A stretch of DNA of 64,000 nt from Elizabethkingia sp. YR214 (GTDB lineage Bacteria; Bacteroidota; Bacteroidia; Flavobacteriales; Weeksellaceae), in contig NZ_QBUH01000011.1 of the NCBI RefSeq assembly GCF_003058195.1, positions 1 to 64,000 of the forward strand, read 5' to 3'. The notes under the pieces are model-generated. The model was not told where the DNA came from, did not search any database, and was given only the letters and a program-made list of their open reading frames with translations. This document shows, one piece after another, positions 23,130 through 61,241 of the stretch. Position numbers and translations under genes: made by a program. Each line of letters opens with the position of its first letter. Positions within the stretch are counted from its first letter, which is position 1.

Positions 23130-23327
23130 ATGAGAAAAAATGACAAACAATTGATGAATCAAACTGAAAAAAAAGATTATAGACCTCCTGTTATAGATGT
23201 TTTGTATGTGACAATGGAACAGGGGATTGCAAGTTCTTCGGCACAGATTGTTCCTGGTGGCTCCACCAATACACCAACCATTACAGACTGGGACGAAAAA
23301 AAAGATGAACAAAACTGGGAATTTTAA
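23130..23327 (+). CDS. Short cassette peptide (EMExGIA-type)
   Basis: A 65-residue peptide whose N-terminal half (TEKKDYRPPVIDVLYVTMEQ then GIASSSA) matches peptides at 36908, 48377, 56737 and 59408, while the tail (ITDWDEKKDEQNWEF) varies but stays acidic and Trp/Phe-rich. There is no classical signal peptide and no cysteine. The gene lies 23 bases before the lipoprotein gene. The conserved-leader, variable-tail layout resembles a precursor peptide, with a possible processing point at the Gly-Ile-Ala-Ser junction, but no maturation enzyme is adjacent. The function is unknown. Confidence 0.75.
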   Translation: MRKNDKQLMNQTEKKDYRPPVIDVLYVTMEQGIASSSAQIVPGGSTNTPTITDWDEKKDEQNWEF

Positions 23328-36907: not shown

Positions 36908-37081
36908 ATGAATGATTTGAAAAAACAGGAGTATATAACTCCAAGAGTAAGCTTGCTTCTTATGGAAATGGAGCAGGGGATAGCTGCAGGATCTGCCAGA
37001 GTATTACCCTCAAATTCTGGTGGACAGGTTCAGGAAGAATGGACAACAGATCCGGATGATAACCGAACAATTGAATGGTAA
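36908..37081 (+). CDS. Short cassette peptide (57 residues)
   Basis: The 57-residue peptide reads MNDLKKQEYITPRVSLLLME then MEQGIAAGSARVLPSN, then a tail ending DPDDNRTIEW. It has the shared Y-x2-P-x-V...EMEQGIAAGSA half of the cassette peptides at 23130, 48377, 56737 and 59408. It has no cysteines and no classical signal peptide. Its stop lies 44 bases before the lipoprotein ATG at 37126, so they are almost certainly one transcript. The last residues are repeated nearly exactly (DPNDNRTIEW) in the decayed duplicate at 43318. Confidence 0.75.
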   Translation: MNDLKKQEYITPRVSLLLMEMEQGIAAGSARVLPSNSGGQVQEEWTTDPDDNRTIEW

Positions 37082-45026: not shown

Positions 45027-45259
45027 ACAGAGCCGATATACATTGTTATGACTTTAGATAAGATTAGTTTTAGATCTAAAAATACTTTGCAAAAAATGAA
45101 TACTATTTCTGTTTATACTAAAGGAAGGATATCATAAACATATTGTAAATACTAAGTTAGTAAATTATCCAAATAGTAGTGGAAATAGGATGTTAGCATT
45201 GTGTTTGTGAGTTTAAAAGCAACGAATACCAAATTATTAACACTTAAAAATTATAAATT

Positions 45260-45391
45260 ATGGGCATACTAACGTGGATTATATTCGGATTAATTACAAG
45301 AACAATTGCGAAAGCTATTCACTCAGAACCAGACCCAGGAGGCTGGATTTCAACAATTATTATCGGTATTATTGACGCAGTTGTTGGATAG
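45260..45391 (+). pseudogene. GlsB/YeaQ/YmgE-family membrane protein, nonsense-truncated
   Basis: MGILTWIIFGLITRTIAK then PDPGGWISTIIIGIIDAVVG matches the start of the small three-TM GlsB/YeaQ/YmgE (transglycosylase-associated) proteins. At 45389-45391 a TAG stands where family members have W or G in AVVGGW; the frame continues VLKSL, also family-like, before losing similarity. Intact members have about 80-90 residues, so the 43-residue product lacks the last two membrane segments. It could be a recent nonsense allele. Confidence 0.6.
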
Positions 45392-45606: not shown

Positions 45607-46325
45607 TTTTTCATCGGATTTAATTGCTTTCACTCTTTCTGTCATATCAATTTTTCATTCCCTATTTTTGTAATTAAATCACCTTTTTTAATAAAGAGAT
45701 TGTTTCTAGCGTCTTATTATTATGATAATTCAAAATATTTTTATTTAAAATTTTAATAATATATACTTTATATAGATGCTTTCTAATCTCAACCAGATTT
45801 TATAATTGGTTTAAAGCAATAAAAATGCACAAAATATCATTACAAAATCATATAGCTGCAATACTAGTTTGATGAATGTAGGGTACATGTAGTATATTGT
45901 TTAATCACATTTTACAGAAGATAAAGGAGAAAGCTTATTACTTTTACTCCATAAACTTAGCCTTTAAATTAGATTTGATTATAACATAAAATCACTGTAA
46001 TTAAGAGACCCGGTAAATGAGTGGGTACTGAACTCTTAATATTTGCAAATTAATTAAAAGATATTTAAAAATTTCGGATAGGTATGAGGGACATTATGGA
46101 GTATTGCAAAAGTATGGAATGAAAGAAGCTTCAAAAGCATTTCGATGCCAATTACCTACAGTTTTAAATTTTTGGAGAAAGAATCTTTATCTTAAGAAAT
46201 AATTAGTAAAGTATGTTATTTATACAATCAAAAACAATTCTCCATCATTCTATATATCATGTATAAATAAATGTCTTAAGAGCAATAAGGAATATTCATT
46301 TAAAATAAATAAGAAACTAACTGGA
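45607..46325 (+). other. Long non-coding region with repeat element and HTH-like scrap
   Basis: Contains a copy of the cassette direct repeat (TGTAGGG at 45877, TGTAGTA at 45888) without a TTTG box at the expected distance. An AATATTTG box sits at 46038-46045. Then a frame ends YGVLQKYGMKEASKAFRCQLPTVLNFWRKN (in part) at about 46201, resembling the HTH of a transposase or integrase. Probably relics of a lost cassette and a mobile element. Confidence 0.4.
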
Positions 46326-47471: not shown

Positions 47472-47529
47472 TGTCGGGTATATGTAGGATTTTTATTTTT
47501 GTAATTAATATTAAAATTATTCAATTTTG
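47472..47529 (+). promoter_or_regulatory. Direct-repeat promoter 1 (TGTCGGG-N4-TGTAGGA)
   Basis: Repeats at 47472 and 47483 (11 bp apart), TTG at 47499-47501, and a CAATTTTG -7 box at 47522-47529. The first repeat is 50 bp from the -7 box. It drives a short unit ending at the double hairpin 47722-47779; a 16-codon frame (MNYYKINKILKCPVNN) lies inside from about 47590. Confidence 0.6.
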
Positions 47530-47721
47530 CAAAGCAATTAGTAATAAATATAAGAAGTGTTTATGTGTGTTGGTTGTCAAGAATAAACAATGAATTACTA
47601 TAAAATAAACAAAATTCTAAAATGTCCCGTAAATAATTGATTTTTTATAGTTAAAATAGAAATACATAAGTGTGAAAGTGTATAATAAGCTTTCATCTTT
47701 GTATTTATTTTTTTGTAAAAT

Positions 47722-47779
47722 AAGTCTTTATGACTTTCCGGTCGATTTTATGCCCAATATTAAATCGACCGGTTTTTTC
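47722..47779 (+). ncRNA. Double-hairpin RNA end, copy 1
   Basis: Hairpin 1 is AAGTC-TTTAT-GACTT. Hairpin 2 is CCGGTCGATTT / AAATCGACCGG followed by TTTTTTC. The same two-hairpin layout recurs at 55864-55921 with compensating base changes in both stems, so the RNA structure is conserved. It ends a roughly 240-base transcript without a clear gene. Confidence 0.65.
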
Positions 47780-48261
47780 GGGAATAAGCTAATCATGGAC
47801 GCTATACTTGTCTATATTTTAAATAGTTTAAGTTAAATAAATCCATTGATAATGGGTATGGAAAAGTCTTATGAGATTGCTATCAACTATTCTCATTCAT
47901 AAATTAATTCTATAGATAGTCTACCATAAAGATAATTAGAGATATCGATTTAGATAATGAGAGTGTAAGGTTTTCACTCAAAGGTATACAAGTAATTGTA
48001 TTTTCATACAGCAGTTCTACTGTCAGACTCTCGAGATGTATTTGACGTTATTTCTTTTAGATGCATTGATTTGTGCACCTGACTTAGGATAGCTTTAATT
48101 TTTTTTAAATATTTTTTCTTTACTTCTGTTAATTTACCGTAATATTCATGAAAGGTGGCCATTGGTTTTATTAGAATTTTTACTAAAGCTGCTTCTATTT
48201 AATTTTTCCCTAAATGCCTAACAGATTAGATAATCTGTTGCTAATCAAATTATTGTTGAGT
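47780..48261 (+). other. Gene-free stretch before cassette three
   Basis: A leftward 52-codon frame (48004-48162, MATFHEYYGKLTEVKKKYLKK...) is helical and Lys-rich but has no supporting context. A GAGTGTAA-like string occurs near 47960. No intact gene is called. Confidence 0.3.
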
Positions 48262-48320
48262 TGTAGCATCTATGTATGATGCTAATTTTATTATTGTCTC
48301 GAAATAAGTATTGAGCTTTG
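48262..48320 (+). promoter_or_regulatory. Direct-repeat promoter 2 (TGTAGCA-N4-TGTATGA)
   Basis: Repeats at 48262 and 48273, GAGCTTTG -7 box at 48313-48320 (51 bp from the first repeat). The peptide gene begins 57 bases later. Confidence 0.65.
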
Positions 48321-48376
48321 CCTTATAGTTTGTATCAGCTTTAGGCTTTATTATTTAAACAGAATAAATTTCACAA

Positions 48377-48589
48377 ATGATTAATATGGAAGATAATAAC
48401 AAAAAACAAACAACAAAGAAGTTGCATGAGAAAAAAGATTATATGCCACCTCTAATAAGTCTTAGTTTTATAGAAATGGAGGGAAGCTTTTTAGCAGCTT
48501 CTGCAGTTATTATTACAACAGATGTTAATAGCCAGATAACCGGTGAATGGAACACAGGCACTGATATGACTGATGATCTTAGCTGGTAA
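48377..48589 (+). CDS. Short cassette peptide (about 70 residues)
   Basis: A 70-residue peptide with the shared half HEKKDYMPPLISLSFIEMEG and then FLAASAVIITTDVNS, and a variable tail GEWNTGTDMTDDLSW. The usual EMExGIA is here EMEGSFLAASA, a divergent form. A second ATG at 48386 (MEDNN) is an equally possible start. It lies 57 bases after the direct-repeat promoter and 43 bases before the FISUMP lipoprotein. It lacks a classical signal peptide and cysteines. The product is unknown. Confidence 0.72.
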   Translation: MINMEDNNKKQTTKKLHEKKDYMPPLISLSFIEMEGSFLAASAVIITTDVNSQITGEWNTGTDMTDDLSW

Positions 48590-48632
48590 AATAAGTAAAG
48601 ACTAATATTTTTAATTAACAAATAGGATTAAG

Positions 48633-50306
48633 ATGTTAAAAAGAATTTTTACAATTATAGACCCCATTATAAGAGAGAGTGCTACATTGCTATTTGTATT
48701 TTTTATGTTAATTTCATGTCGTAGTACCGATACTGATCACTCTAATACAGATAATACTAATGCAGTGGTTAAAATAAATGTGCAAGGCGAGATGTTTGAT
48801 CGTGTACAAAATATAGAGAATCAAGCGGCAGTTTCAGTAGTTAAGCCGGATTCTTCATTACTGATTTTTCAAGATGAAATTCCATTTAATGATGATTTTA
48901 CGCTAATTGCTAGAGTATCATCTGATGTCTTACCCGTTCAAAAAGCTACTGTATCATTATCAAATATAAGTTCGGTGCAGGCTGATACTGATGTAAGTAC
49001 TATCCCCTTAGGAATCAGATATAAGCTAATAGTATATAAAGCAACAGGAGAATATATTACAGAGAGAAATTATATATACGGTCAGGAAAGCAGTACACAG
49101 GCTCTTAATCTGGACGGAGGAAACAATTATACATTTGTTGTGTATTCTGTTAACAGCCCAGCGACCCTTCCGGTCGTTACATTCACGAACTCTCAGAATA
49201 AAACTCTTTCTACTTCGATTATTTCAGGACTAAGTGGGATTTCGGACTTTATGTATTTCAAGAAAGAGATGCAGTTGGTTGGTAATCAGCCTAACTATCT
49301 AAATGTGGTATTTAATCATAAATTCAGTCAGATTATTACACATATTGATGCTTCCCTAAGTGGATATAATGTTAGTGCCACAGATCTTTCCTATGATTCC
49401 CATTTTCCTACAGCTGGTATAAAACTTGAGGATGCAGCTATAACACGTACTGGTACTGTGGGGCGTTCTAATATTATTTTTCAGACACTTAATTTGTCTA
49501 CTATTGTTAGTAATCCAACAATTATAAACGGAAATACTTCTACAGGCTCTCTTGTCATAAATTCTATAACTATTGGGAGTATAGTGCGCACTAAACTCAC
49601 TGCATTTGCAAATAAATTAATGATCACCCCTGGTGTAAAGTATAATGTAACATTAAACATTGTGCCCACAGATACCTACCTTGATTATATGGGGCAGAAG
49701 GCCGTTCGTATTAATGGAGAAATATGGATGCGTCACAATCTTGGAGCAGATACCAATCTTAATCCGGATCAAGATCCTTCAGTTCAGGGACTTCATGGAA
49801 ATTACTACCAATGGGGAGAAATCCAAGAAGTAGCCAATGCCTATACAGCATCAGAAGCTATTTCTGGGTGGAGAGGAACAGGGTATCCGTGGAAAGCTAA
49901 CAATGCATGGAATAGTGGAACAGAAACTTCTCCTGTAAAGGTAATGGCTAATGACCCGTGTCCTAATGGTTTTCGTATTCCGACTAAAACAGAATATGAT
50001 GCACTTATAGCTTCTACTGTACAAGGAAATGTAGGGATATGGAGTAAAGGAGAGACCAATTTTTCAGCAGCAAAAGTATTTGTAAGTAAACGAAATAAAA
50101 ATGTTCATTTGACTTTTCCCGCAGCTGGATTCCGTGATGCCTATGCAGGTTCACTTTTTGATTCTTCATATAAGATTCGGGGTGAAGGTGGATATTACAG
50201 AACAAGTACAGCGAATTATGAGATGAGTATTTATGCAGGGCAGGTAGTTTTATATTCAGATGCATATAAATCTTGGGGGGAATCGATTCGTTGTATTGCT
50301 GTTTAA
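48633..50306 (+). CDS. Fimbrillin-like lipoprotein with FISUMP C-terminal domain
   Basis: A 557-residue lipoprotein; lipobox MLISC followed by R-S-T-D (Cys about residue 29). The N-terminal fimbrillin-like region includes GIRYKLIVYKATGEY, GNNYTFVVYSVNSPATLP, DFMYFKKEMQLV and FNHKFSQIITHIDAS. From about residue 345 a Fibrobacter-succinogenes major paralogous (FISUMP) domain runs to the end: GEIWMRHNLGADT, GNYYQWGE, DPCPNGFRIPTKTEYDAL, LTFPAAGFRD, GYYRTS and ESIRCIAV. FISUMP domains are carbohydrate-surface or adhesin-like in Bacteroidota. The gene is transcribed with the peptide upstream. Confidence 0.82.
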   Translation: MLKRIFTIIDPIIRESATLLFVFFMLISCRSTDTDHSNTDNTNAVVKINVQGEMFDRVQNIENQAAVSVVKPDSSLLIFQDEIPFNDDFTLIARVSSDVLPVQKATVSLSNISSVQADTDVSTIPLGIRYKLIVYKATGEYITERNYIYGQESSTQALNLDGGNNYTFVVYSVNSPATLPVVTFTNSQNKTLSTSIISGLSGISDFMYFKKEMQLVGNQPNYLNVVFNHKFSQIITHIDASLSGYNVSATDLSYDSHFPTAGIKLEDAAITRTGTVGRSNIIFQTLNLSTIVSNPTIINGNTSTGSLVINSITIGSIVRTKLTAFANKLMITPGVKYNVTLNIVPTDTYLDYMGQKAVRINGEIWMRHNLGADTNLNPDQDPSVQGLHGNYYQWGEIQEVANAYTASEAISGWRGTGYPWKANNAWNSGTETSPVKVMANDPCPNGFRIPTKTEYDALIASTVQGNVGIWSKGETNFSAAKVFVSKRNKNVHLTFPAAGFRDAYAGSLFDSSYKIRGEGGYYRTSTANYEMSIYAGQVVLYSDAYKSWGESIRCIAV

Positions 50307-50316
50307 TCGAAACTAT

Positions 50317-50368
50317 CAACCTATAATTTCTGTTGAATATGTTTTTATACAACAGAAATTATAGGTTG
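50317..50368. repeat. Perfect 19-bp inverted repeat after cassette three
   Basis: CAACCTATAATTTCTGTTG pairs exactly with CAACAGAAATTATAGGTTG across a 14-base loop, 11 bases past the lipoprotein stop. No T run on either strand; it probably protects or ends the transcript. Confidence 0.75.
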
Positions 50369-50521
50369 GAAAAGAATCAGTATTTCTAGGAATTTAGATA
50401 TAAGGTTATTTTGTGGTTAGTGCTCTATCAGCTTATCATATGAAAAAAAAAGTGTCAATGTAGCACTCCTGTCTTTTTTTGTTCATTATAATTTAAGCTA
50501 GATAAGATTTAAGTAGGGTGC

Positions 50522-50692
50522 TATCTTTGCCTTAGATCAATTTAGTTTATACAATTTTGTATTGTATAATTGATGTTTGTAAAAAGAAAAAGCCACTATA
50601 ATATAATCATCATATTTTATTTGTTTGTATAAACTAAAACTTAAGTGTTTTGGCAGGTAATTAATTGGTGTGATAATTACCTGCATTTATTT
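50522..50692 (+). ncRNA. Candidate structured small RNA
   Basis: A perfect TATCTTTG -7 box (50522-50529) is followed by about 160 bases without a gene. Within it TTTAGTTTATACAA (50541-50554) is exactly complementary to TTGTATAAACTAAA (50625-50638). The inner part TATACAAT (50549) can instead pair with ATTGTATA (50561). The unit closes with the hairpin GCAGGTAATTA / TAATTACCTGC and ATTTATTT. Two exclusive folds upstream of a terminator suggest a regulatory RNA. Confidence 0.5.
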
Positions 50693-50872
50693 GGGCTTGT
50701 TATAATAATAATGGTTTTCTAAAAGTTTTTTACTTTTTCTTACAAGTACCAGCCCTTTGCTAATAACAAGTTTGTATCTTAAAGTAAGATTTGTTTTATT
50801 TCTCTATGCCTATCCTTATATAAGGTATAGGATATTTCCCTCGTTATTTTTTAATTCATTGACTGTCAGTAA

Positions 50873-50932
50873 TGTAGGGTCTATGTATGGTGTATGGTTT
50901 TGCATATGTTTCAAATATATTATTGATTTTTG
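50873..50932 (+). promoter_or_regulatory. Direct-repeat promoter 3 (TGTAGGG-N4-TGTATGG)
   Basis: Repeats at 50873 and 50884, TTTTG ending 50902 as -33-like element, GATTTTTG -7 box at 50925-50932 (52 bp from the first repeat). The peptide gene starts at 51008. Confidence 0.65.
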
Positions 50933-51007
50933 CGGCTATTATAATTAAGTATTCAAGTAGTATATGGGTTTGAAACTTTAAAATATAACATTAAGAAACA
51001 ACACAAC

Positions 51008-51196
51008 ATGATGAAACTAAAGCAAAACACAGACTTATTGAAAAGGAAAAAAGTATATCTCGCACCTAAAGTGGAAACAATCCTTGTCGAAACAGGTAAA
51101 GATGATTACATTTCATATTTTGCATCCGTAAAATTGGCTACTTGCAATAATCAAGAAAACAGTAAACAAAATCCGATATCCAAAAGGATTTTGTAA
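51008..51196 (+). CDS. Divergent cassette peptide ahead of the TPR-HTH regulators
   Basis: A 62-residue peptide with LLKRKKVYLAPKVETILVET, matching the K-K-x-Y-x2-P-x-V/I-x3-I-V/I-E half of the other cassette peptides, but then GKDDYISYFASVKLATCNN instead of GIAAxSA, one cysteine, and a Lys/Arg-rich tail. The leader AAACAACACAAC-ATG is like those at 55634 and 59106. It is the only peptide followed by a regulator (51512) rather than a fimbrillin lipoprotein, which makes it a candidate signal for that regulator. The function is unknown. Confidence 0.6.
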   Translation: MMKLKQNTDLLKRKKVYLAPKVETILVETGKDDYISYFASVKLATCNNQENSKQNPISKRIL

Positions 51197-51511
51197 ACCA
51201 ATTTCAACTATTGGTGATATCAGGATCGTAAGTTTTATTTGTACTTGCACTGCATAAACAAGTATCCGGATTATATGAGCCAACTAAGCTACTACGCTTT
51301 GGTAATTCTCCTGTATACGGATATATGGTGTAATTGAGGTTTTCTTAAGAAAAAATAGATGTTTTTATTATTAATGAACGCTTTCAGGGTTGATAATTTG
51401 ATAATTCTATTTTTTAAACTCAATGGTCATTTTACAGTCAATTATTTACATACCTGTATAACTATTACAATTACAAACAAAGCTGTAAATTTTAATTCTT
51501 TTTATTGAAAA
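51197..51511 (+). other. Leader region of the first TPR-HTH gene
   Basis: No gene. Weak hairpin arms (AAGTATCCGGATTATAT with TATACGGATATATGG) are present; no TGTAGGG repeat or TAnnTTTG box was seen. Confidence 0.3.
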
Positions 51512-52978
51512 ATGATGCCCAACATATTTAATATTTGGATAATTATTATAAAATATATTGTACCTATAATTAGTATACTTTTACTATTTTCATGTCATTC
51601 TGTTTCTGAAGAAGAATCTTTCAAGACTTTTGATTACCCTCTTATCAAACAAAATGAGCAAATACGTTTGTCTGGGGATTATAAAAGCATTACTGAACTC
51701 AATTTAAGATATTATAAAAGTGCTCATAAGAAAGGTTATGAGGACGGCAAGGCCATTTGCTATATTAATCTGGCATTTGTAAATAGTGTAGTTGGTAATT
51801 ACAGGCAAGCATTATTTTTATTGGAAAAGGCGGACAAAATTGTTAATAAATCTAAAAATAACCTGCATAAAGCCTGGTTGTATGATGGGTACAGTGATCT
51901 TAATTATTTTCTGGGCCTTTACAATAATGCGCTGAGTTATAATACCCGTGCATTTTCTGCTCTCGAAAAAATAAATAATAACAATATAAAGAGAGAGTAC
52001 CTTTCTCAATTTTATATTAAAAGAGGACAGGTTTTATTTGAAAGCCCTGACTATAATAAAGCTTTGTCTAATTTCCATAAAGCCTTAAAAATAAAAAAGC
52101 AGGCCTATACGGCGGGGTGGCTTGTAAATTCTTATGTGAAAATTAATAAACGGGATTCTGCCTTATATTATTTAAAACAAGCACATTATATGATGGGAAG
52201 AGAAAAAATAACCCATTATAATATCCTTGGTAGTGTGATCTATTTTTTTTCCGGTAATTATTATAGCTTGATTGGGCATTACAAAGATGCAGAGAATGCT
52301 TATATAAAAGGGTTGGAAATCAATGCTATGACAAGAAATATTTACAAGCCATATTTTAGTATGGAGGTTTATAAGGCTATGGCGGAGGTGTATCATAAAG
52401 CTGTTAATCCGGAAAAAGAACATTTTTACAGAACGCTATATAGTTATAATAAAGAACATTTTTACGAAAAACAAAAGGGAGCGATTAATCTGGCTACTGA
52501 AGAGTTTATTTCTGAGGCTAAAGAAAGTGAACAGTATGAGAAATATAAAATGTACTGGTTTGCCGGATTACTAGTTGTTATTACGCTGATTATAAATATT
52601 TATACCTTTAAAAAAATAAGGAATTTAAAGAGGAAAAAAATGCTTCTGCAGCATAGGACACAAAATTTGGAACGGCAAATGGACCAAAATAGATTTATTG
52701 AAATTATTGAGCTCGCGAAAAAAAATGACTCTGCATTTTTAGTTAAATTTGAAGAAGTATATCCCGATTTTACCCCCAGTTTAAAAAAAATAAATCCGGA
52801 AATTGAATATTCTGAGATTGCTTTTTGTGCCATGATCAGATTAAATTTTACTTCAAAAGAAATTGCAACCTATACTTATATACAACATGCTTCTGTACAA
52901 CAGCGCAAAAGACGGATCAGGAAAAAACTTAATATTCCAAGTGATGTCGATTTATATCAGTTTTTTAACAATTTATAA
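51512..52978 (+). CDS. Membrane-anchored TPR / coiled-coil / LuxR-like HTH regulator
   Basis: A 488-residue protein. The N-terminus has a hydrophobic signal with a lipobox-like LLFSC at residue 28. About six TPR-like helical pairs follow (residues 60-320, for example KGYEDGKAICYINLAFVNS, NALSYNTRAFSALEKI and YNKALSNFHKALKIKKQA). A membrane segment at about 347-366 (YWFAGLLVVITLIINIYTF) leads to a coiled coil, then an HTH from about 415 (SEIAFCAMIRLNFTSKEIATYTYIQHASVQQRKRRIRKKL). The TPRs would face the periplasm and the HTH the cytoplasm: a one-component transmembrane regulator. A close paralogue is at 53779. Confidence 0.82.
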   Translation: MMPNIFNIWIIIIKYIVPIISILLLFSCHSVSEEESFKTFDYPLIKQNEQIRLSGDYKSITELNLRYYKSAHKKGYEDGKAICYINLAFVNSVVGNYRQALFLLEKADKIVNKSKNNLHKAWLYDGYSDLNYFLGLYNNALSYNTRAFSALEKINNNNIKREYLSQFYIKRGQVLFESPDYNKALSNFHKALKIKKQAYTAGWLVNSYVKINKRDSALYYLKQAHYMMGREKITHYNILGSVIYFFSGNYYSLIGHYKDAENAYIKGLEINAMTRNIYKPYFSMEVYKAMAEVYHKAVNPEKEHFYRTLYSYNKEHFYEKQKGAINLATEEFISEAKESEQYEKYKMYWFAGLLVVITLIINIYTFKKIRNLKRKKMLLQHRTQNLERQMDQNRFIEIIELAKKNDSAFLVKFEEVYPDFTPSLKKINPEIEYSEIAFCAMIRLNFTSKEIATYTYIQHASVQQRKRRIRKKLNIPSDVDLYQFFNNL

Positions 52979-53099
52979 TTTTGCCCTTTTCAAAATAGGT
53001 GTTATTGTATTGTTAAATTCTTTATGTTATTATTAATATTATTTCAAGAACTAAAGAAATATTCGGATTTTTCTTTATTGCAAGAATGTGTAAGTCGTT

Positions 53100-53650
53100 G
53101 ATAAATCTTTATAGAAATACGGCTGATCCAGTAAGGAAAAACAATACAAGGATTGTTATTATGCAGAAATGGACAAGTTGTAAAGTGCTCGAAAATATAC
53201 CGTTAATATTGCTGCTGCATAGTTTTAACAACGTCAAAAAGAGAGTAAAAGGCAGAAGCAAAAATTTGGCTTTATATTGCTATACTTAGTATGGTTGTGG
53301 GATTAATATCTGAAAATAAGAGGCCTAAGATAAAAAAACAGTCATTACAAACCCACAGAACCAAATTAACAGAGCGTGTGAGCAGGAATTTGTTTAACAA
53401 AACAGCTGGCTGGCTAAAGCTTTTGATCCTGAGTTTTACTATGATTTCAGGAATTAAATCCTGAGTTTATTCAAAATTAAAAATACTTAATCCTAGTTTG
53501 GAAGTCTCGGAAATTAGCATCTGGCTGAATTTTACTTCTATAGAAATTGCAAATATCATGGATACCCAACATGCTTTTATACAGCAATGGAAAGGAAGAA
53601 TCATAAAATAATTAATATTCCAAGTGATGTGAATCTGTATCAGATTTTTG
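53100..53650 (+). pseudogene. Decayed third TPR-HTH regulator (C-terminal part)
   Basis: Base-level similarity to 54685-55230 is plain although all frames are broken. AAATCTTTATAGAAATACGG aligns with the LYRDTNEHF segment; the coiled-coil part is recognisable near 53320-53390. QELNPEFIQ..., SLEVSEISIWLNFTSIEIANIMDTQHAFIQQWKGRI corresponds to the HTH of the paralogues. The N-terminal lipobox and TPR region are absent. It lies between the two intact genes, so the array once held three. Confidence 0.8.
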
Positions 53651-53778
53651 TAGTTTGCAATTTTAGTATATTTTATTTAATCATTTTTTAATAATAGTTA
53701 ATTGTTATTATTTTGCTGGTATTTACAATTTATTTGTATTAAATTTATGTTATCAATAAGCAATAATTAATTGTAGAT

Positions 53779-55233
53779 ATGTCAGGTGTTAAAATGCTAA
53801 ACTTGAAAGGTTTTACAATGATATTCGTTGTATTTCTGTTTTTTTCCTGTGAGCCTTCCTCCCAGGACAAGTATCTTAAAAGCTTTGATATTCCACTATT
53901 GGAGCAAAATAATAAAATTCGCTTATCCGGTGATTACAGGGATTTTACAGTGTTGAATACCAAATATTATAAGGAAGCTCAGAAAAAAAAATATGAAGAC
54001 GGAAAAGCCCTCTGCTACATCAACTTATCATTTATCAATAGTGCATCTGGTAATTCCAAACAAGCTTTATTTTTGTTAGAAAAGGCTAAAGAAATTCTTA
54101 AGCAGTCTAACAATAAACTTCATATTGCATTGTTGAATCATGGTTATGCTGATCTCAACTTTTTTCTTCAGCTTTATAACAGTGCTCTTAATTATAATAC
54201 TCTGGCATTACAGGCTATTGAAGAGGTTGATAATGATAAGATAAAAGAAGAATATCTCTCCGAGTTTTATATCCAAAGAGGTGAAATTTTGTTCGAAGCT
54301 ACTAATTACAAGGAGGCATTAAAAAATTTTCATAAGGCTGAAAAAATAAAAAAACAGGCTTATACAGAAGGGTGGCTCACTAATGTATATATTCAGGTTA
54401 ATAAACTGGATTCTGCTTTTTATTATCTTAAGCAGTCGCATCAGAGCATGTTAAAAGAAAAAGAGATTATTCATAGTACCACGGGAGCCGTTGTTTATTT
54501 TTTTTCCGGCAATTATTATAATGTGGTCCAAAATTACCCAGAAGCTGAAACATTGTATTTAAAAGCTTTGAAAATAAATTCAGAAGTGAAAACTGTTTAC
54601 AGCCCGTTCTTTGATATGGTTATGTATGATATTATGGCAGATATGTATAAGAAAGCAGGTGATAAGGAAAGGGAGAGCCATTACAAATCTTTATATCGGG
54701 ATACTAATGAGCATTTTTATAAACAACAAAAAGAAGTCGTTAATCTCGCCACTGAAAAATTTATCACTGATATTCAAAACAGTGAAAGAGCAGAAAGAAG
54801 AAAAATGTGGTTGTTTATAGGTTTTTTAGTAGCAGGAGTTGTGGGGCTGGTAGTGTTTACTTATATTAAAATCAGGCATTTGAAATTTAAAAAACAAGTA
54901 TTACATATTAAGACCAATAAGTTAAAGGAGCAAATAGAAAATAATCTATTTAATGAGGTAATTGAATTGGCGAAAACCAATGATTCAATGTTTTTATCAA
55001 GATTTCAGGAGCTATATCCGGAATTTATTCAGAAACTAAAATCCCTGAGCCCTGAACTCGAGACTTCAGAAATGACTTTCTGTGCAATGATCAAACTGAA
55101 TTTTACTTCTAAAGAAATTGCCAATTATACTTTTGTACAACATGCTTCTGTACAACAACGAAAAAGAAGAATTAGAAAAAAGTTCGCAATTCCTAGTGAT
55201 GCAGATCTTTATCAATTTTTTTCTGGCCTTTAA
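53779..55233 (+). CDS. Second membrane-anchored TPR / HTH regulator
   Basis: A 484-residue paralogue of 51512 with the same order. Lipobox-like FLFFSC (Cys 24), TPR helices (about 55-315, for example KKYEDGKALCYINLSFINSAS and YKEALKNFHKAEKIKKQAY), a membrane segment at about 343-362 (MWLFIGFLVAGVVGLVVFTYI, in part), a coiled coil, and an HTH from about 410 (SEMTFCAMIKLNFTSKEIANYTFVQHASVQQRKRRIRKKF). The sequence HASVQQRKRRIRKK is identical in both genes, so both should read similar DNA. The direct-repeat promoters around them are the best candidate sites. No kinase or receiver domain is present. Confidence 0.82.
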   Translation: MSGVKMLNLKGFTMIFVVFLFFSCEPSSQDKYLKSFDIPLLEQNNKIRLSGDYRDFTVLNTKYYKEAQKKKYEDGKALCYINLSFINSASGNSKQALFLLEKAKEILKQSNNKLHIALLNHGYADLNFFLQLYNSALNYNTLALQAIEEVDNDKIKEEYLSEFYIQRGEILFEATNYKEALKNFHKAEKIKKQAYTEGWLTNVYIQVNKLDSAFYYLKQSHQSMLKEKEIIHSTTGAVVYFFSGNYYNVVQNYPEAETLYLKALKINSEVKTVYSPFFDMVMYDIMADMYKKAGDKERESHYKSLYRDTNEHFYKQQKEVVNLATEKFITDIQNSERAERRKMWLFIGFLVAGVVGLVVFTYIKIRHLKFKKQVLHIKTNKLKEQIENNLFNEVIELAKTNDSMFLSRFQELYPEFIQKLKSLSPELETSEMTFCAMIKLNFTSKEIANYTFVQHASVQQRKRRIRKKFAIPSDADLYQFFSGL

Positions 55234-55547
55234 TTTTCTCTTTTATCTAATTCTGTATTTTTTTAGTCTTCCCTTATCATGAAATACAAAAATCTTGTTT
55301 GTTTCTCTATACAGGGAAGCTTTGGTGTATAGCAGTTATGTGTAATTAAAGTAGCTGGATAATCTCAGTTAGAATTTAAGCATTAGTATATTACTTAGCT
55401 TTTAGTCTTTGGAAAAAATTAATTGAGGATCATGATTCAGCTAATCGGAATAATGAAATTTTAAATAGCTTTAATGATTGTTCATGATGTCTCATTTATA
55501 AAGCGATTTGTAAGGGTTGAAATGCTGTGAAAAAGTCTAAATAGCAA
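55234..55547 (+). other. Gene-free stretch after the regulators
   Basis: No gene, RNA or strong terminator recognised; a lone TGTAAGGG occurs at 55509. Confidence 0.35.
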
Positions 55548-55606
55548 TGTAGGGCTCGTGTAGGGTGTTGTTTTTAGGTGAATTGGATTATTTTGTCCAA
55601 TATTTG
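55548..55606 (+). promoter_or_regulatory. Direct-repeat promoter 4 (TGTAGGG-N4-TGTAGGG)
   Basis: An exact 7-base direct repeat at 55548 and 55559, with an AATATTTG -7 box at 55599-55606 (51 bp from the first repeat). The leader AAACACAAAGAG-ATG follows. Confidence 0.7.
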
Positions 55607-55633
55607 CAAATCAAATTAAAAAAACACAAAGAG

Positions 55634-55730
55634 ATGAAAAATTTAAAATTTCGTAATACCCAAAAGTACTAAGGCCAGAGTCAAGTTCTGTAGTATTTGT
55701 ATAGTGTAAGGTTATATCAAAACCATAGAA
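55634..55730 (+). pseudogene. Degenerate cassette peptide
   Basis: Begins MKNLKFRNTQKY and stops; one base on, another frame continues KVLRPESSSVVFV, like the K-K-Y-V-x-P-E-I-x-V-x-x-V-E half of cassette peptides. It occupies the usual peptide position after the direct-repeat promoter and before the double hairpin at 55864. Confidence 0.4.
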
Positions 55731-55863
55731 AATTCCAGAGTCCAACGACCTTGGTATTTACCATAAAAAAACAGCAAGTTTAGATAACATCCATTGGGCT
55801 TCTAGATTACAGGTTAGACAATGCCCATAGGACTCATCGTTAGTTGTTATTTGTTTGTGAAAT

Positions 55864-55921
55864 AAGCCTTACTGGCTTTCCGGACGGTTCATCAGATTGG
55901 TATAAATCGTCCGGTTTTTTC
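55864..55921 (+). ncRNA. Double-hairpin RNA end, copy 2
   Basis: Hairpin 1 AAGCC-TTACT-GGCTT; hairpin 2 CCGGACGGTT pairing with AAATCGTCCGG (G-T wobbles), then TTTTTTC. Compared with copy 1 at 47722, paired positions changed together (T-A/C-G in stem 1, T-A/A-T in stem 2). Confidence 0.65.
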
Positions 55922-56049
55922 AGAATACACATTTAATTAGATATCAGTAGACATTTTATAATTCTATCCCTGTTTGTGATTATAATAATTTAAGAAAATC
56001 ATACTTGATGAAATCATTAACAGGGATAATTTTTTAACAAAATAAAATT

Positions 56050-56604
56050 ATGTTAATTAATAATTTTGCTATTTCTATTAAGGGATGTTATTTCCCTCTT
56101 ATAAGTGGCATATTATCTTTATTTGTTGGGTTTATCATTTTATTTGTTCCAGCAATATCTAAGATAATGTTCAGTTTGAGCATTGTATCCTCTGCATTGT
56201 TACTCATTACATTTTCTTTGATTAATCGTAGCATCATTAATTTGTGGAGTTGGTATGTTGCTTATGGGGTGATGATCCTTTTAATGGGAGGTTATTTTAT
56301 AGTGCATGCAGAGGATTCTTATATACCATTTGTAATGGGGTTCGTTTTGCTTTTCCGTTTTATACTTTTAGTAGGAATAGCTGTGGATATAAGAGAAGTA
56401 AGAGCCAGGGGTTGGAAAAAACTGATGTTAATGGGAAGTATGGGGGGGCTCCTTTCCTTTTTTATCATTCTTAATTTGAACAGTACTTTTTTAGTACTGC
56501 TCACATTTATCTGCCTTGGTGTAAGTTCTATGTTATTGTCATGGGTTTTGAGAAAAATGAGAAGGTTTCAGAAGTTACAACAATTTCAAGCATTATCATT
56601 ATAG
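56050..56604 (+). CDS. HdeD/DUF308-type six-TM membrane protein
   Basis: A 184-residue membrane protein with six regular hydrophobic segments. The first reads YFPLISGILSLFVGFIILFVPA, the W-x-x-x-x-x-G-x-x-x-x-x-x-G-x-x-x-x-x-x-P spacing of the HdeD (DUF308) family, and a second repeat with WSWYVAYGVMILLMGGYFIVHAE follows. A basic linker (DIREVRARGWKK) and two last segments complete it. HdeD proteins are acid-stress-linked membrane proteins in enterics; the role here is unknown. It lies between the double-hairpin RNA and the peptide at 56737, in the same orientation, and may be transcribed into that cassette. Confidence 0.75.
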   Translation: MLINNFAISIKGCYFPLISGILSLFVGFIILFVPAISKIMFSLSIVSSALLLITFSLINRSIINLWSWYVAYGVMILLMGGYFIVHAEDSYIPFVMGFVLLFRFILLVGIAVDIREVRARGWKKLMLMGSMGGLLSFFIILNLNSTFLVLLTFICLGVSSMLLSWVLRKMRRFQKLQQFQALSL

Positions 56605-56736
56605 AAGTCTAAGAAGATGTATAACATTATTTTATAATATCCTTAATTGATGGAATAGTTACAGTATTTCATTTTTTTTTAATGAATCCAAATAATTATC
56701 AAGCGTATAAAATAAACAACTTTAAAACTATTGGTT

Positions 56737-56946
56737 ATGTTAGATGATAAGAAAACAGAACCTATTCTTCAAATAAAAAAAGAATACGTAAAACCTTTAA
56801 TAAAATTATTATGGGTGGAAATGGAAAATGGGATTGCAGCTCAATCTGCAAGTCTGAACCCTGGTGATATTAATTCACCAGGCACTCCCAAGGTTGAAGA
56901 CTGGAATGATGGCGGAAGCCTTGGAAATAAAGATTTTGATCTATAG
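56737..56946 (+). CDS. Short cassette peptide (69 residues)
   Basis: A 69-residue peptide: KKEYVKPLIKLLWVEMENG then IAAQSASLNPGD, tail PKVEDWNDGGSLGNKDFDL. The ATG at 56737 is used; a TTG two codons earlier is less likely. It shows the complete shared half with EMENGIAAQSA. The acidic tail with one Trp fits the other cassettes. It lies 33 bases before the FISUMP lipoprotein ATG. No export signal or modification enzyme is visible nearby. Confidence 0.75.
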   Translation: MLDDKKTEPILQIKKEYVKPLIKLLWVEMENGIAAQSASLNPGDINSPGTPKVEDWNDGGSLGNKDFDL

Positions 56947-56979
56947 ATTTTTAAAAATAATCACATTAAATATACAAAG

Positions 56980-58728
56980 ATGAATATCATTTTATCTACT
57001 AATGTAATAAAGTCAACAAGATCTTTATTACTGGTCTGTACTATTTTTATAAGTATTATTTCTTGCTCTTCCAGAGATGAAGACCCCACTACGAATTCTA
57101 AAAATAGTATAATTCCTGAAGGTACGATGCTGATTGTTAATATTGAAGGAATAGCAGAAGACAATAATGTAATACCTCTTGCCAGTGCTTCTCTTAATAC
57201 GGAAAAATCAAATACCCTTACAGGTAAAACTATTATTGCCAAGGAAAAAATGGTTTCTGTAGGAAATTTCGATGCACTTGTAAGTGCGGAAGGAGGAATG
57301 AGGGTTGAAAACAATGCAAATGCAATGGCTTATCAGCCTTCTAATTTGCTACCTATAGCCGCGTTAACTCAATCACCTGTTGCATCTGGAATTCAGTATC
57401 GTATACTTATTTATGATGCTACAGGGACTCAATTAATATCAAATACACCGGCTTTGTCGGGCACTAATCCAAATATCAAAGTAGATGCCGGTAAAAGATA
57501 TCAATGGTATGCTTTCTCAACCAATGAAAATTCGGTTCCGGATATTAATGCACAAGGTGTCGTTAGTGGAAATAATCTTTCCAACAAAGATGTATTATAC
57601 AGTCAGGGGATTATTGACACACAGTATGGACAAAACTATCTTAATGTTGTATTCAAACGCAATACTGCACGAATTGCACTGGATCTGGATACCAGAGGTA
57701 TGTTTGGTACAATCAATAATACAACTTCAGTAGAATTGGGTACAGGTACAGGAAGTGGTTTTACCAGTATTATTCAAACTGGTGATCTTAATATATTTAC
57801 GGGTCAGTACTCAAATCTGCAAAATATTAGCCCAATTACCGGAAGCAGTATGACAAATAAAGCCGGAGCCGGTGGTGCAGCAGGTGCAACAAAAACAGCT
57901 GTATTTTATACCGTAAGAACGACAAATATTCCCGTGAATAATCTCAGATTCAGGTTAAATCAGCTGGATATTACGATGGATAATAGTAGTACAAGAAGTT
58001 TTAGCAATAGTATTATCCCGTATAATAACACAGCCCTGACTCCGGCATTGGGAAATAATTATTCGCTGAATGCCCGTTTAATAGAATCCGGAATAAGAGT
58101 TAAAGGACTATTATGGGGACGCACGAACTTACTCTATTCATCATCGCAAAGTGATGCTTACAGATTTAGAGTAGATAACGAATATTCACAGCCGGATATG
58201 AATACCGAATACTGGAATTGGATGTCTGCTACACCTACAGGGGCTTCATCGGATAATGTTGACCCTTGTTCCAAAGTTTACCCGGCGGGCGAATGGAGAA
58301 TGCCAACAAGTGCAGAATTCAGCAGCCTTGGACAACCTGATGATAAAAAGGAAAACTATGGTTTATTTTTAGGCGCAACATTTAGTGCCGTGTATAATCT
58401 GGATGCAGGAAACAGTCTTAATACTTCCTATCCGGTAAATTCTCAAAATTTATTTGTCGCATTTTATGGCTACAGAACAAAATCAATATTTGGTAACACG
58501 GTAATCTCCGATTCACCTGGTGGACTTCTTGGGGGGGCTTTAGGATCCGGATCTGGTTATTACTGGTCTTCTACGCAAGTTAATGCCAGTAATGCGAACT
58601 ATTGGTACATGAATTATACCCGGCTTCTTATCCTTGCAAACTGGAGTACTGCAGATATCAGATCCGGAGCGAAATCTGATGGGCGTATGGTTCGTTGTGT
58701 AAGATCGGTACAAGCATCTAATACTTAA
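56980..58728 (+). CDS. Fimbrillin-like lipoprotein with FISUMP-like C-terminus
   Basis: A 582-residue lipoprotein; lipobox ISIISC near residue 29. The fimbrillin-like region has SGIQYRILIYDATGTQL, GKRYQWYAFSTNENSVP, DVLYSQGII and VFKRNTARIALDLDT. From about residue 365 the C-terminal domain shows KGLLWGRTNLLY, then DPCSKVYPAGEWRMPTSAEFSSLG, SGYYWSSTQ and GRMVRCVRSVQ, a divergent FISUMP-type fold (W-R-x-P-x-x-x-E-x-x-x-L, Y-Y-W-S-S, V-R-C-V). It should be surface-exposed. It is co-transcribed with the peptide at 56737 and closed by the terminator at 58820. Confidence 0.8.
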   Translation: MNIILSTNVIKSTRSLLLVCTIFISIISCSSRDEDPTTNSKNSIIPEGTMLIVNIEGIAEDNNVIPLASASLNTEKSNTLTGKTIIAKEKMVSVGNFDALVSAEGGMRVENNANAMAYQPSNLLPIAALTQSPVASGIQYRILIYDATGTQLISNTPALSGTNPNIKVDAGKRYQWYAFSTNENSVPDINAQGVVSGNNLSNKDVLYSQGIIDTQYGQNYLNVVFKRNTARIALDLDTRGMFGTINNTTSVELGTGTGSGFTSIIQTGDLNIFTGQYSNLQNISPITGSSMTNKAGAGGAAGATKTAVFYTVRTTNIPVNNLRFRLNQLDITMDNSSTRSFSNSIIPYNNTALTPALGNNYSLNARLIESGIRVKGLLWGRTNLLYSSSQSDAYRFRVDNEYSQPDMNTEYWNWMSATPTGASSDNVDPCSKVYPAGEWRMPTSAEFSSLGQPDDKKENYGLFLGATFSAVYNLDAGNSLNTSYPVNSQNLFVAFYGYRTKSIFGNTVISDSPGGLLGGALGSGSGYYWSSTQVNASNANYWYMNYTRLLILANWSTADIRSGAKSDGRMVRCVRSVQASNT

Positions 58729-58819
58729 AAATAAAATAAAAGAAATAAGAGGTATTATTTTTGACAGAAATACTTAAATCTGATCAAATAGAAAAAATTA
58801 TTATCATTTGTTTTTATAG

Positions 58820-58857
58820 GCGGGCAACACAATTGTTTTTGTTGTCCGCTTTTTTTT
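58820..58857 (+). terminator. Terminator after cassette five
   Basis: Stem GCGGGCAACA / TGTTGTCCGC (one G-T pair), ten-base loop, eight T. Confidence 0.85.
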
Positions 58858-59018
58858 GTCATGGCTATCCATTTTAACAAGTAAAAAAAACACATAATTA
58901 AATTTTAGGGTGTAATTATAGACCTATAATATAAGTATCAAAGGATGGTTCATATATATTCTATTGAAAAATATAAAAATATTGTGTGAAAGTGAGCCTG
59001 AAAAGAGCGTTATTATGA

Positions 59019-59077
59019 TGTAGGGTCCGTGTATGGTGTTAGTATTGTGTGTTTTATGCCTTTTTTTTTGATATTTG
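59019..59077 (+). promoter_or_regulatory. Direct-repeat promoter 5 (TGTAGGG-N4-TGTATGG)
   Basis: Repeats at 59019 and 59030, TTG at 59045-59047, GATATTTG -7 box at 59070-59077 (51 bp from the first repeat). The leader AAACAACACAAAAAG-ATG follows. Confidence 0.7.
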
Positions 59078-59105
59078 CAGCGTTAAAATAAAACAACACA
59101 AAAAG

Positions 59106-59204
59106 ATGAAAATTAATTTTTGCAACATAAAAAAGTGCAAAGGCTCCGAAATATCTGTTAGGTATTTTATCAAAAACAGATTACAAATTACTCTTAAGAA
59201 ATAA
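59106..59204 (+). CDS. Possible small basic peptide after promoter 5
   Basis: A 32-codon frame at the place where 51008 and 55634 begin relative to their promoters: MKINFCNIKKCKGSEISVRY then FIKNRLQITLKK. It is very basic with two cysteines. KKCKGSEISVRYF vaguely follows the KKYVSPEIDVIRI half of the next peptide, so it may be a worn duplicate. About 200 bases without a gene separate it from 59408. Confidence 0.35.
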   Translation: MKINFCNIKKCKGSEISVRYFIKNRLQITLKK

Positions 59205-59407
59205 CCAAAATTTTGAAGAAAGCCCGGAATTAATATTTATTCATTTCCAGCATTAAACTTTTTTTCAAGTTTAACTTCTGGGAAGTACATAAATATTTTT
59301 TAGATGCTCTACAAGTATACTTTATAAAGGAGTATATAATCTCCTATGGCTTTACTTCAAATCCCTCCGCAATTATTTACATAAAGATGAACTATAAATT
59401 GACAATT

Positions 59408-59617
59408 ATGAGAAATGATGAAAAAAAACAAATTCTATTTCAGACTGAAAAAAAGAAATATGTTTCGCCTGAAATAGATGTAATACGAATAGAAATGGAG
59501 AGTGGAATTGCTGCCGCATCCGCTTCTGTTACTCCCGTTACGGTAAATGGTGCAGCTGATCAGGTACCTACAGACTGGGAAGGAACAGATGATACGACAA
59601 TTAATACTGGATTTTAA
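59408..59617 (+). CDS. Short cassette peptide (69 residues)
   Basis: Start chosen at 59408 (MRNDEKKQ), which aligns with the peptide at 23130 (MRKNDKQ); an ATG seven codons upstream is also possible. The shared half is TEKKKYVSPEIDVIRIEMES then GIAAASASVTPV; the tail is DQVPTDWEGTDDTTINTGF. It lies 13 bases before the lipoprotein ATG. This and the 23130 copy are the most alike, although they lie 36 kb apart with different lipoproteins. No cysteine and no signal peptide. Confidence 0.75.
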   Translation: MRNDEKKQILFQTEKKKYVSPEIDVIRIEMESGIAAASASVTPVTVNGAADQVPTDWEGTDDTTINTGF

Positions 59618-59630
59618 AACTTTAATAAAG

Positions 59631-61241
59631 ATGAAAAAAATATTTATTGCAAGTATATACTTGGTGTTGGGAACCACTGGTCTTTTGTTAACTTCATGTC
59701 GCAGTACTGATACAGAGAGTAATCTGGTAAGTGGTGCTCCTACTGCTGTTAATTTTAATTTGACAGGTACGGAATTTTCAGGCGGAACAGCAACTGCCCA
59801 GGCATCTGTAGAGGGAAAGGGAGTTGCATTTACTGAAGCTTCTGTTCAGAAACAAACTGTAATGGTTGATCCCAGTACAGTGATCGTTGCAGAATTATCA
59901 CCGGTTTCAGGTAGTATAAAATCTTCCACGCAGGCTTCTGTAGGGAAAGCTGCATTAGCTGCTGTACCTGGCAATGCTTTAGGAGCGGGTATTCAATTCC
60001 GTGTTATCGCCTATAATCAGGCTGATGGTTCTTTTCAGGCTTTTCAGGATTATACGGTAGGGCAACAGGCTGTACCGATGATGCTGAATGTGGGAGCGAC
60101 TTATACCATGGTCGTTTACTCTTATGGAACTATGACATTACCAGCTATTACATCAGGAGAAAAAACAAGTATCAATAATGCACAGGTAAACTATGATGAT
60201 GCAAACCGGGATTTTATGTATTACAATCAAAGCAATTATATTCCTGTAAAAGGATCTAATGTTTTAAATATTACATTAAGGCATAAAGTTGCTCAGATCA
60301 CTACCATTATAAATTCAAACGGAATGGGGAATATAGCATCAGTTGCAAATGCTGTTCTTACCCCGCATTATAGTAATGGTACAATTCCTTTATCCAGTGG
60401 GGTAATGACGGGAAGAAGTACCTTAACTGCAGGAGTACCTCTTCAGTTTTCCAATACCTCTCCTACCACTAGTGTTGCTGCGCCTGTATTTATCAATGCA
60501 GATACCGGTGGTAACAAAACAGGATCTTTCTCGGCAGATATAAGCCTTGGAAGTACAACTGTAACTAAAAATCTTGCAAACACATTTAAAATTACACCAG
60601 GTTATAAAAGTAATTTAACAATTAATATAGAAAAATGTGGTGCCATGGTCAATGGGGTATGGCGTACGTTTATGTGCCATAATCTGGGGGCAGAAATTGC
60701 TGCAGATCCTTTTACACCGGCGGCAGCTATACATGGAGCCAAATACCAGTGGGGTGCTCAGACAGGAGAAGCCGGAAGATATGTATCTCAGACTGATGAT
60801 CAGTCCATGACATCTGTAAGTGGTTGGAATACAACAATGAATACTGATAATAGTTTATGGGGAGATACTACTAAAGGACCTAATGATCCTTGTCCGAGTG
60901 GATTTAGACTGCCTGCACAGACTGAATGGGCTGCAGTTATTAATGAAAATACAGGGGCACGTGTAGGAAATTGGGTTTTTAATGTAACTACATATGGTTC
61001 AGCATATTACTTTAGCTCGGCATCAAGGCCTAATAGTCTTATGTTACCAGCGGCAGGGTACCGCCCTGACGGACTTATTTTGTCACGTGGAAAAGAGGCT
61101 AATTATTGGAGTGGAACAACACTGGATGGGATAAATTCTAAGAGGTTGAGTATTACTGGATTCACTGTAACAGCCGATACAAATTTCAATGGACAACCTA
61201 GAACAGATGGACTTAGCGTTCGTTGTATTTCTGTCAACTAA
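59631..61241 (+). CDS. Fimbrillin-like lipoprotein with FISUMP C-terminal domain
   Basis: A 536-residue lipoprotein starting at 59631 (MKKIFIAS), with lipobox LLLTSC and the C-R-S-T-D sequence shared with 37126 and 48633. The fimbrillin-like region shows GIQFRVIAYNQADGSF, GATYTMVVYSYGTMTLP, DFMYYNQSNYIPV and LRHKVAQITTIINS. The FISUMP domain (about residue 340 to the end) shows GVWRTFMCHNLGAE, GAKYQWGA, DPCPSGFRLPAQTEWAAV, LPAAGYRPDG, EANYWSGT and LSVRCISVN. It is probably displayed on the cell surface. The thioredoxin-like gene at 61350 follows in the same direction. Confidence 0.83.
   Translation: MKKIFIASIYLVLGTTGLLLTSCRSTDTESNLVSGAPTAVNFNLTGTEFSGGTATAQASVEGKGVAFTEASVQKQTVMVDPSTVIVAELSPVSGSIKSSTQASVGKAALAAVPGNALGAGIQFRVIAYNQADGSFQAFQDYTVGQQAVPMMLNVGATYTMVVYSYGTMTLPAITSGEKTSINNAQVNYDDANRDFMYYNQSNYIPVKGSNVLNITLRHKVAQITTIINSNGMGNIASVANAVLTPHYSNGTIPLSSGVMTGRSTLTAGVPLQFSNTSPTTSVAAPVFINADTGGNKTGSFSADISLGSTTVTKNLANTFKITPGYKSNLTINIEKCGAMVNGVWRTFMCHNLGAEIAADPFTPAAAIHGAKYQWGAQTGEAGRYVSQTDDQSMTSVSGWNTTMNTDNSLWGDTTKGPNDPCPSGFRLPAQTEWAAVINENTGARVGNWVFNVTTYGSAYYFSSASRPNSLMLPAAGYRPDGLILSRGKEANYWSGTTLDGINSKRLSITGFTVTADTNFNGQPRTDGLSVRCISVN

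Follow-up and report, generated by a model that had tools for sequence, protein, structure and literature searches.

Two groups of bacterial regulators are described as tandem dimers that bind, close to the -35 region, a 22-bp box made of two 7-bp direct repeats and a 4-bp spacer: the OmpR/PhoB family, with PhoP of Mycobacterium tuberculosis and the pho box of Escherichia coli (PMC4832192), and the SARP proteins of Streptomyces (PMC5930380). SusR-like proteins of Bacteroides span the membrane, carry a periplasmic sensor and a cytoplasmic C-terminal helix-turn-helix (HTH) domain and likewise use direct-repeat operators, the repeats of SusR lying 67 or 77 bp apart from centre to centre (PMC3878776). 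Here, we analyse the first 64 kb (the window) of the 119.8-kb contig C11 from a 4.05-Mb Elizabethkingia genome, and describe a heptamer repeat, TGTAGGGN4TGTANGG (18 bp, 13 specified bases), that stands at a fixed distance upstream of TTTG-type promoter boxes around two genes for regulators that combine tetratricopeptide repeats (TPR) with an HTH domain (TPR-HTH proteins). We propose, at a probability of roughly 0.75, that the element is the operator from which these membrane-anchored proteins activate weak sigma-A promoters.

The element shares its heptamers and 4-bp spacer with the OmpR/PhoB and SARP sites, whereas the TPR-HTH proteins differ from those regulators in carrying a GerE/LuxR-type four-helix HTH with neither winged helix nor receiver domain, in their predicted membrane span and in their association with Bacteroidota TTTG-type promoters. 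Their predicted overall layout is that of SusR-like proteins, but their repeats are 11 bp apart, their sensor is a TPR array and there is no SusC/SusD context. In the fold of the HTH they are close to the NarL/LuxR (GerE) domains of VraR, LiaR, DosR and EvgA. Most described NarL/LuxR members bind inverted repeats, whereas all sites found here are direct repeats without a palindrome, and in place of a receiver the TPR-HTH proteins have a TPR array that is predicted to be bound to the membrane. The TPR superhelix and the small peptide genes nearby recall the RNPP/Rap proteins (NprR and Rap). RNPP sensors are cytosolic, however, and the DNA-binding ones have their HTH at the N terminus, whereas the HTH of the TPR-HTH proteins is C-terminal and follows a predicted transmembrane helix, which speaks against a cytosolic protein. 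The TPR-HTH family has many members and is little studied, and our literature search, whose coverage largely excluded subscription papers, found no described operator for TPR-HTH or LuxR-type regulators of Bacteroidota, in agreement with the preliminary description of this DNA, which knew of none of such form.

A tandem repeat at fixed distance from promoter boxes

At five sites in the window (47472, 48262, 50873, 55548 and 59019; Table 1), the two repeat units follow each other with a spacing of 11 bp, and the first base of the repeat lies 54, 55, 56, 55 and 55 bp, respectively, before the TTTG and 50-52 bp before the start of the NAnnTTTG 8-mer that contains it. The preliminary description had given the same coordinates, repeat spacing and box distance, all of which hold, but only 50873, 55548 and 59019 match its motif exactly, the other two sites being degenerate; similarly, the TTTG it assigned to a -7 box is present, but the box has the form nAnnTTTGC rather than the full TAnnTTTG. 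With up to two mismatches to TGTAGGGN4TGTANGG, the window contains five matches compared to 0.83 expected, a number reached in none of 100 shuffles. Site 48262 is not recovered in the window at this stringency, and resembles the promoter of a TPR-HTH gene in Elizabethkingia occulta (TGTATGATCTG TGTATGATGTG). A further copy at 45877, reported as lacking the box, indeed has no TTTG at a distance of 54-56 bp and is probably not functional.

Table 1 Elements, regulator genes and putative targets in the window
Feature	Coordinates	Strand	Sequence or remark
Orphan half-matching repeat	45877..45894	+	2 mismatches
Degenerate operator	47472..47493	+	TGTCGGGTATA TGTAGGATTTT; TGTCGGG/TGTAGGA, 2 mismatches
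-7 box of site 47472	47522..47529	+	CAATTTTG
Short transcript unit	47530..47790	+	ends in intrinsic terminator
Operator variant	48262..48283	+	TGTAGCATCTA TGTATGATGCT; TGTAGCA/TGTATGA, 3 mismatches to TGTAGGGN4TGTANGG
-7 box	48313..48320	+	GAGCTTTG; upstream of genes 48377 and 48633
Small peptide gene	48377..48589	+	Y.PP.IEV..EME.G.AA.SA family; putative target of 48262 promoter
FISUMP-domain lipoprotein	48633..50306	+	downstream of peptide gene 48377
Operator, exact	50873..50894	+	TGTAGGGTCTA TGTATGGTGTA
-7 box	50925..50932	+	GATTTTTG; promoter of 62-aa peptide-like open reading frame preceding TPR-HTH gene 51512
Divergent small-peptide family member, 62 aa	51008..51196	+	putative target of 50873 promoter; E 0.0012
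TPR-HTH regulator 1	51512..52978	+	TPR array, transmembrane segment about 345-369, C-terminal LuxR-type HTH
TPR-HTH regulator 2	53779..55233	+	55% identical to regulator 1; transmembrane segment about 341-368
Operator, exact	55548..55569	+	TGTAGGGCTCG TGTAGGGTGTT; heptamers 7/7 identical; 315 bp 3' of TPR-HTH gene 53779
-7 box of site 55548	55599..55606	+	AATATTTG
Short transcript unit	55607..55925	+	12-aa open reading frame; terminator block as in 47530..47790
Operator, exact	59019..59040	+	TGTAGGGTCCG TGTATGGTGTT; duplicate at contig position 114111
-7 box of site 59019	59070..59077	+	GATATTTG
Open reading frame, 32 aa	59106..59204	+	start of 59019 transcript
Small peptide gene	59387..59617	+	downstream of 59019 promoter
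FISUMP-domain lipoprotein	59547..61241	+	likely true start near 59631
Further small-protein family members	56731-56946, 36908-37081, 23130-23327

In the whole genome, TGTAGGGN4TGTANGG has six exact matches, five of them on contig C11 (50873, 55548, 59019, 69320 on the minus strand and 114111). The extended form TGTAGGGN4TGTANGGTG has five, all on C11 and around two TPR-HTH genes, whereas its reversed pattern has none. An element equally frequent inside genes would, according to the preliminary description, speak against a regulatory site; in our scan it was not. The sixth exact match of TGTAGGGN4TGTANGG, at C7:102736 (L034 7737-7880), lies inside the 3' end of an open reading frame, with a TTTG at 53 bp, directly upstream of genes for a Wza-like lipoprotein and a Wzc-like kinase. 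We set it aside as possibly due to chance, with about 0.05 exact matches expected per genome by a hand estimate. Five matches to a looser pattern across the genus fall in what seem to be two conserved coding genes, as judged from near-identical sequences, and were treated as background.

Over 24 sites, the half-site consensus is TGTAGTAT. The repeats are directly followed by a strongly conserved run of T, 28-31 nt before the TTTG (the -33 region), and the TTTG mostly by a C. The sigma-A box of Flavobacterium psychrophilum is TAnnTTTG at -12 to -5, and the general sigma motifs of that species have no repeat of this kind (PMC9723704). Compared to this box, the sites keep TTTG(C) and have mostly lost the TA, usually lacking its first T; since the scan for such sites required A..TTTG, the conservation of these bases is not evidence. 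If the transcription start geometry of F. psychrophilum applies, the repeats would cover about -63 to -42.

The geometry recurs across loci and genera while the sequence varies

No other exact copy of TGTAGGGN4TGTANGGTG exists in 296 Weeksellaceae genomes, in which the literal TGTAGGG motif appears outside this genome just as scattered singletons with one mismatch. Among these genomes, the TGTAGGG-type sequence is species-specific, and we therefore searched by geometry instead. We found, ahead of further peptide and TPR-HTH genes, repeats that differ in sequence (TGAAGGA/TGAAGGA, TGTAGTA/TGTAGTA, ATGGGGA/ATGGGTA and TGTATGA/TGTATGA) but have a period of 11 and a TTTG at 54-57 bp, and such repeats, with half-sites varying around TGTAGTA, lie beside TPR-HTH genes in other Elizabethkingia, in Chryseobacterium and in Epilithonimonas. 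The common layout is a TPR-HTH gene followed by the site, the -7 box and the target. Within orthologous intergenic regions, conservation is conspicuous in the repeat block: in four Elizabethkingia genomes, TGARGTATGTGTGTAGTAYT, the T-run and ATATTTGC are conserved immediately 3' of an orthologous TPR-HTH gene.

In 102 non-redundant clusters of Elizabethkingia regions beside TPR-HTH or peptide genes, nine have a period-11 repeat at 54-57 bp, compared to zero to two for other periods (8 to 24), zero to four for other offsets and a mean of 0.48 (maximum 3) in dinucleotide shuffles. To test the rule on independent loci, we used 12 TPR-HTH proteins for a profile search of bacterial genomes, which yielded 79 loci; 72 of these come from outside Elizabethkingia and were not used in finding the rule. 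The 72 loci contain 32 matches to period 11 with the box at 54-57 bp, whereas other periods reach 0-16 and other offsets 2-15, and 24 of the period-11 matches are within 700 bp outside a TPR-HTH gene, compared to 0-5 for other periods. Finally, TGTNGTAN4TGTNGTAN{36,38}TTTG has 24 matches in 148 whole Weeksellaceae genomes, whereas the reversed control has four, the same letters at period 12 have one and a TTTG box placed 6 bp closer has one; a TPR-HTH gene lies no more than 1.5 kb from 19 of the 24, compared to about 0.5 expected, a count in which matches from related species are not independent. A period-10 repeat near a 325-aa TPR-HTH variant was left out of all counts.

These three tests support the link to the TPR-HTH regulators, or to the pair of paralogues in the window, that the preliminary description had suggested in proposing a helically phased activator site. 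What it did not see is that, across the loci compared, the geometry is general and the half-site sequence varies from regulator to regulator. As a search pattern, the predicted operator has almost no background (24 matches compared to one and one in the altered controls), and a strict geometry would make TPR-HTH regulons predictable and provide exact promoters for testing.

Predicted structure of the TPR-HTH regulators

The genome has 19 matches to the HTH family of these proteins. The model of the 53779 product (predicted local distance difference test (pLDDT) score of 87.7) has TPR helices from residue 27 to 293, a single helix of 104 residues (296 to 399) with the predicted transmembrane segment inside it, and the HTH at 405-483. 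The N terminus of the 51512 product is a hydrophobic, lipobox-like segment ending in a Cys, and Cys24 is nearly invariant after the hydrophobic N terminus of TPR-HTH proteins; this suggests a lipoprotein-type signal and a periplasmic TPR domain. Fold searches with the TPR part retrieve general TPR proteins, including NprR and Rap.

Modelled alone, the HTH domain reaches a pLDDT of 94.6. It matches the profiles of EvgA (7 × 10−6) and VraR, the GerE profile is matched by 10 of 12 TPR-HTH members (best E value 2.1 × 10−5), and Foldseek retrieves the C-terminal domains of VraR, LiaR and DosR, with a root mean square deviation of 1.6-1.7 Å to VraR and LiaR. In the predicted structure, the tail is thus an all-helical, GerE/LuxR-like four-helix HTH, without a winged-helix Trans_reg_C domain. 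A broken remnant of a third TPR-HTH C terminus lies between the two intact genes (53465-53660).

Proposed mechanism and alternatives

From the repeat, its geometry and the predicted fold, we infer a mode of action in which two LuxR-type HTH domains would bind head to tail to two half-sites one helical turn (11 bp) apart, generally about TGTAGTAT and, in the window, TGTAGGGT/TGTATGGT. Both domains would occupy the same side of the helix, immediately before the -33 region, and from this position attract sigma-A RNA polymerase to promoters with an incomplete -7 box. The sensors in the window would be the products of 51512 and/or 53779, in which a probably periplasmic TPR array would be joined by one transmembrane helix and a long coiled coil to the cytoplasmic HTH, and the regulated targets would be small peptides, FISUMP lipoproteins and short RNA units. 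Paralogous regulators elsewhere would each have their own half-site variant in the same geometry. Such a system would combine the tandem-repeat geometry of PhoB and SARP sites with a membrane-bound regulator carrying a LuxR-type HTH.

Several results weigh against this proposal. At the stringency used, 93 of the 102 clusters of TPR-HTH or peptide regions have no site, so many paralogues would have to use other or weaker ones. The 72 loci correspond to 33 DNA clusters, the period-11 matches near TPR-HTH genes come from five of these, and the counts are non-independent because they include orthologous sites. The copy at 69320 has a TTTTA box in place of TTTG, and the C11-type TGTAGGG is confined to one sequenced species. 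Differences in the recognition helix follow differences in the half-site only weakly (Spearman 0.28, P = 0.038, n = 15, phylogeny uncontrolled); given this weak significance we do not use the covariation as proof, and take the pairing of GGG-type half-sites with QQRKRR helices, and of GTA-type mostly with KKxR helices, as a lead only.

Repression by TPR-HTH proteins bound to the element, or alternation between repression and activation, is unlikely. Several genes flank the regulators on both sides and the direction of control is itself inferred, which leaves room for repression, but the repeats precede the -33 region instead of overlapping the -7 box, and this box is incomplete, as expected of activated promoters, and we favour activation for these reasons. 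Quite improbable is a site bound by an OmpR/PhoB-family response regulator or a SARP-like protein, with the TPR-HTH proteins as mere neighbours: the repeat geometry is identical to that of PhoP/PhoB (PMC4832192) and SARP (PMC5930380) sites, but none of the nine OmpR-type DNA-binding domains of the genome is encoded on C11 (no PF00486 gene there), the site accompanies TPR-HTH genes across genera, and paralogous TPR-HTH loci in one genome differ in site sequence, unlike what one global regulator would require.

Duplication of a promoter-peptide cassette, rather than selection of an operator, could also make the copies alike. The stretch 58934-60897 is indeed a 93.6% identical duplicate of C11 114028-115961, comprising the operator (59019 and 114111), the 32-aa open reading frame, the peptide gene and the start of the FISUMP gene, and the units at 47472, 55548 and 68245 are homologous. 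We nevertheless hold this to be very improbable, as the geometry is kept at unrelated loci and in other genera in which half-sites and flanks differ, the repeat block is conserved in orthologous intergenic regions and patterns of altered geometry are nearly absent. We give almost no credence to the idea that RNA polymerase or a special sigma factor recognises the repeat as an extended upstream promoter element. Such an element would account for the fixed distance to the -7 box, but sigma elements are not expected to be sequence-varying 11-bp tandem repeats tied to one regulator family and the general F. psychrophilum motifs contain none.

Putative targets of the regulators

The small proteins downstream of the sites are 57-80 aa long and share the core Y.PP.IEV..IEMEQGIAAGSA, with a conserved leader-like N terminus ending in GIAAGSA and a variable tail that is acidic or contains Trp. 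Better-assembled Elizabethkingia genomes have 24-28 such genes each, mostly adjoining FISUMP or TPR-HTH genes, and the family matches none of the Pfam or NCBIfam models scanned. From their sequence, they look like secreted peptide precursors. TPR-HTH regulators could then be periplasmic peptide receptors, with the approximately 24-28 small peptides per genome as secreted ligands of insulated channels that control surface lipoproteins, a reading we regard as doubtful; if true, each sensor would have a private half-site variant and the system would be a Bacteroidota counterpart of RNPP quorum sensing.

The short units at 47530-47790 and 55607-55925 are homologous to a third at contig position 68245 (L031 8310-8590), which carries a degenerate operator, CATAGGACTTATGTAGGG. 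All three have a common GTTTGTGAAATAAGTCTTTATGGCTTTCCGGTCGATTTT and an intrinsic terminator, and no Rfam family matches them. In Chryseobacterium and in C6-type Elizabethkingia loci, the genes behind these promoters encode small lipoproteins and secreted proteins. In Epilithonimonas-type loci, what follows the promoters is a short unit without an open reading frame of annotated size that runs toward a convergent gene, so the regulation of short transcripts may be a recurrent feature.

Just 3' of the TPR-HTH genes of six loci (L250, L256, L261, L276, L306 and L307), the operator is followed by a conserved short unit with the blocks AAATTTATTG and GATTCTGAAAACACA and no sizeable open reading frame, which ends at a convergent gene and is a candidate small RNA. 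Elsewhere in the window, 29661-29742 matches the Rfam c4-2 RNA above its gathering score, and a small open reading frame region adjoining a tRNA-Arg gene is repeated at 45196-45388 and C11 102782-102973 with 80% identity.

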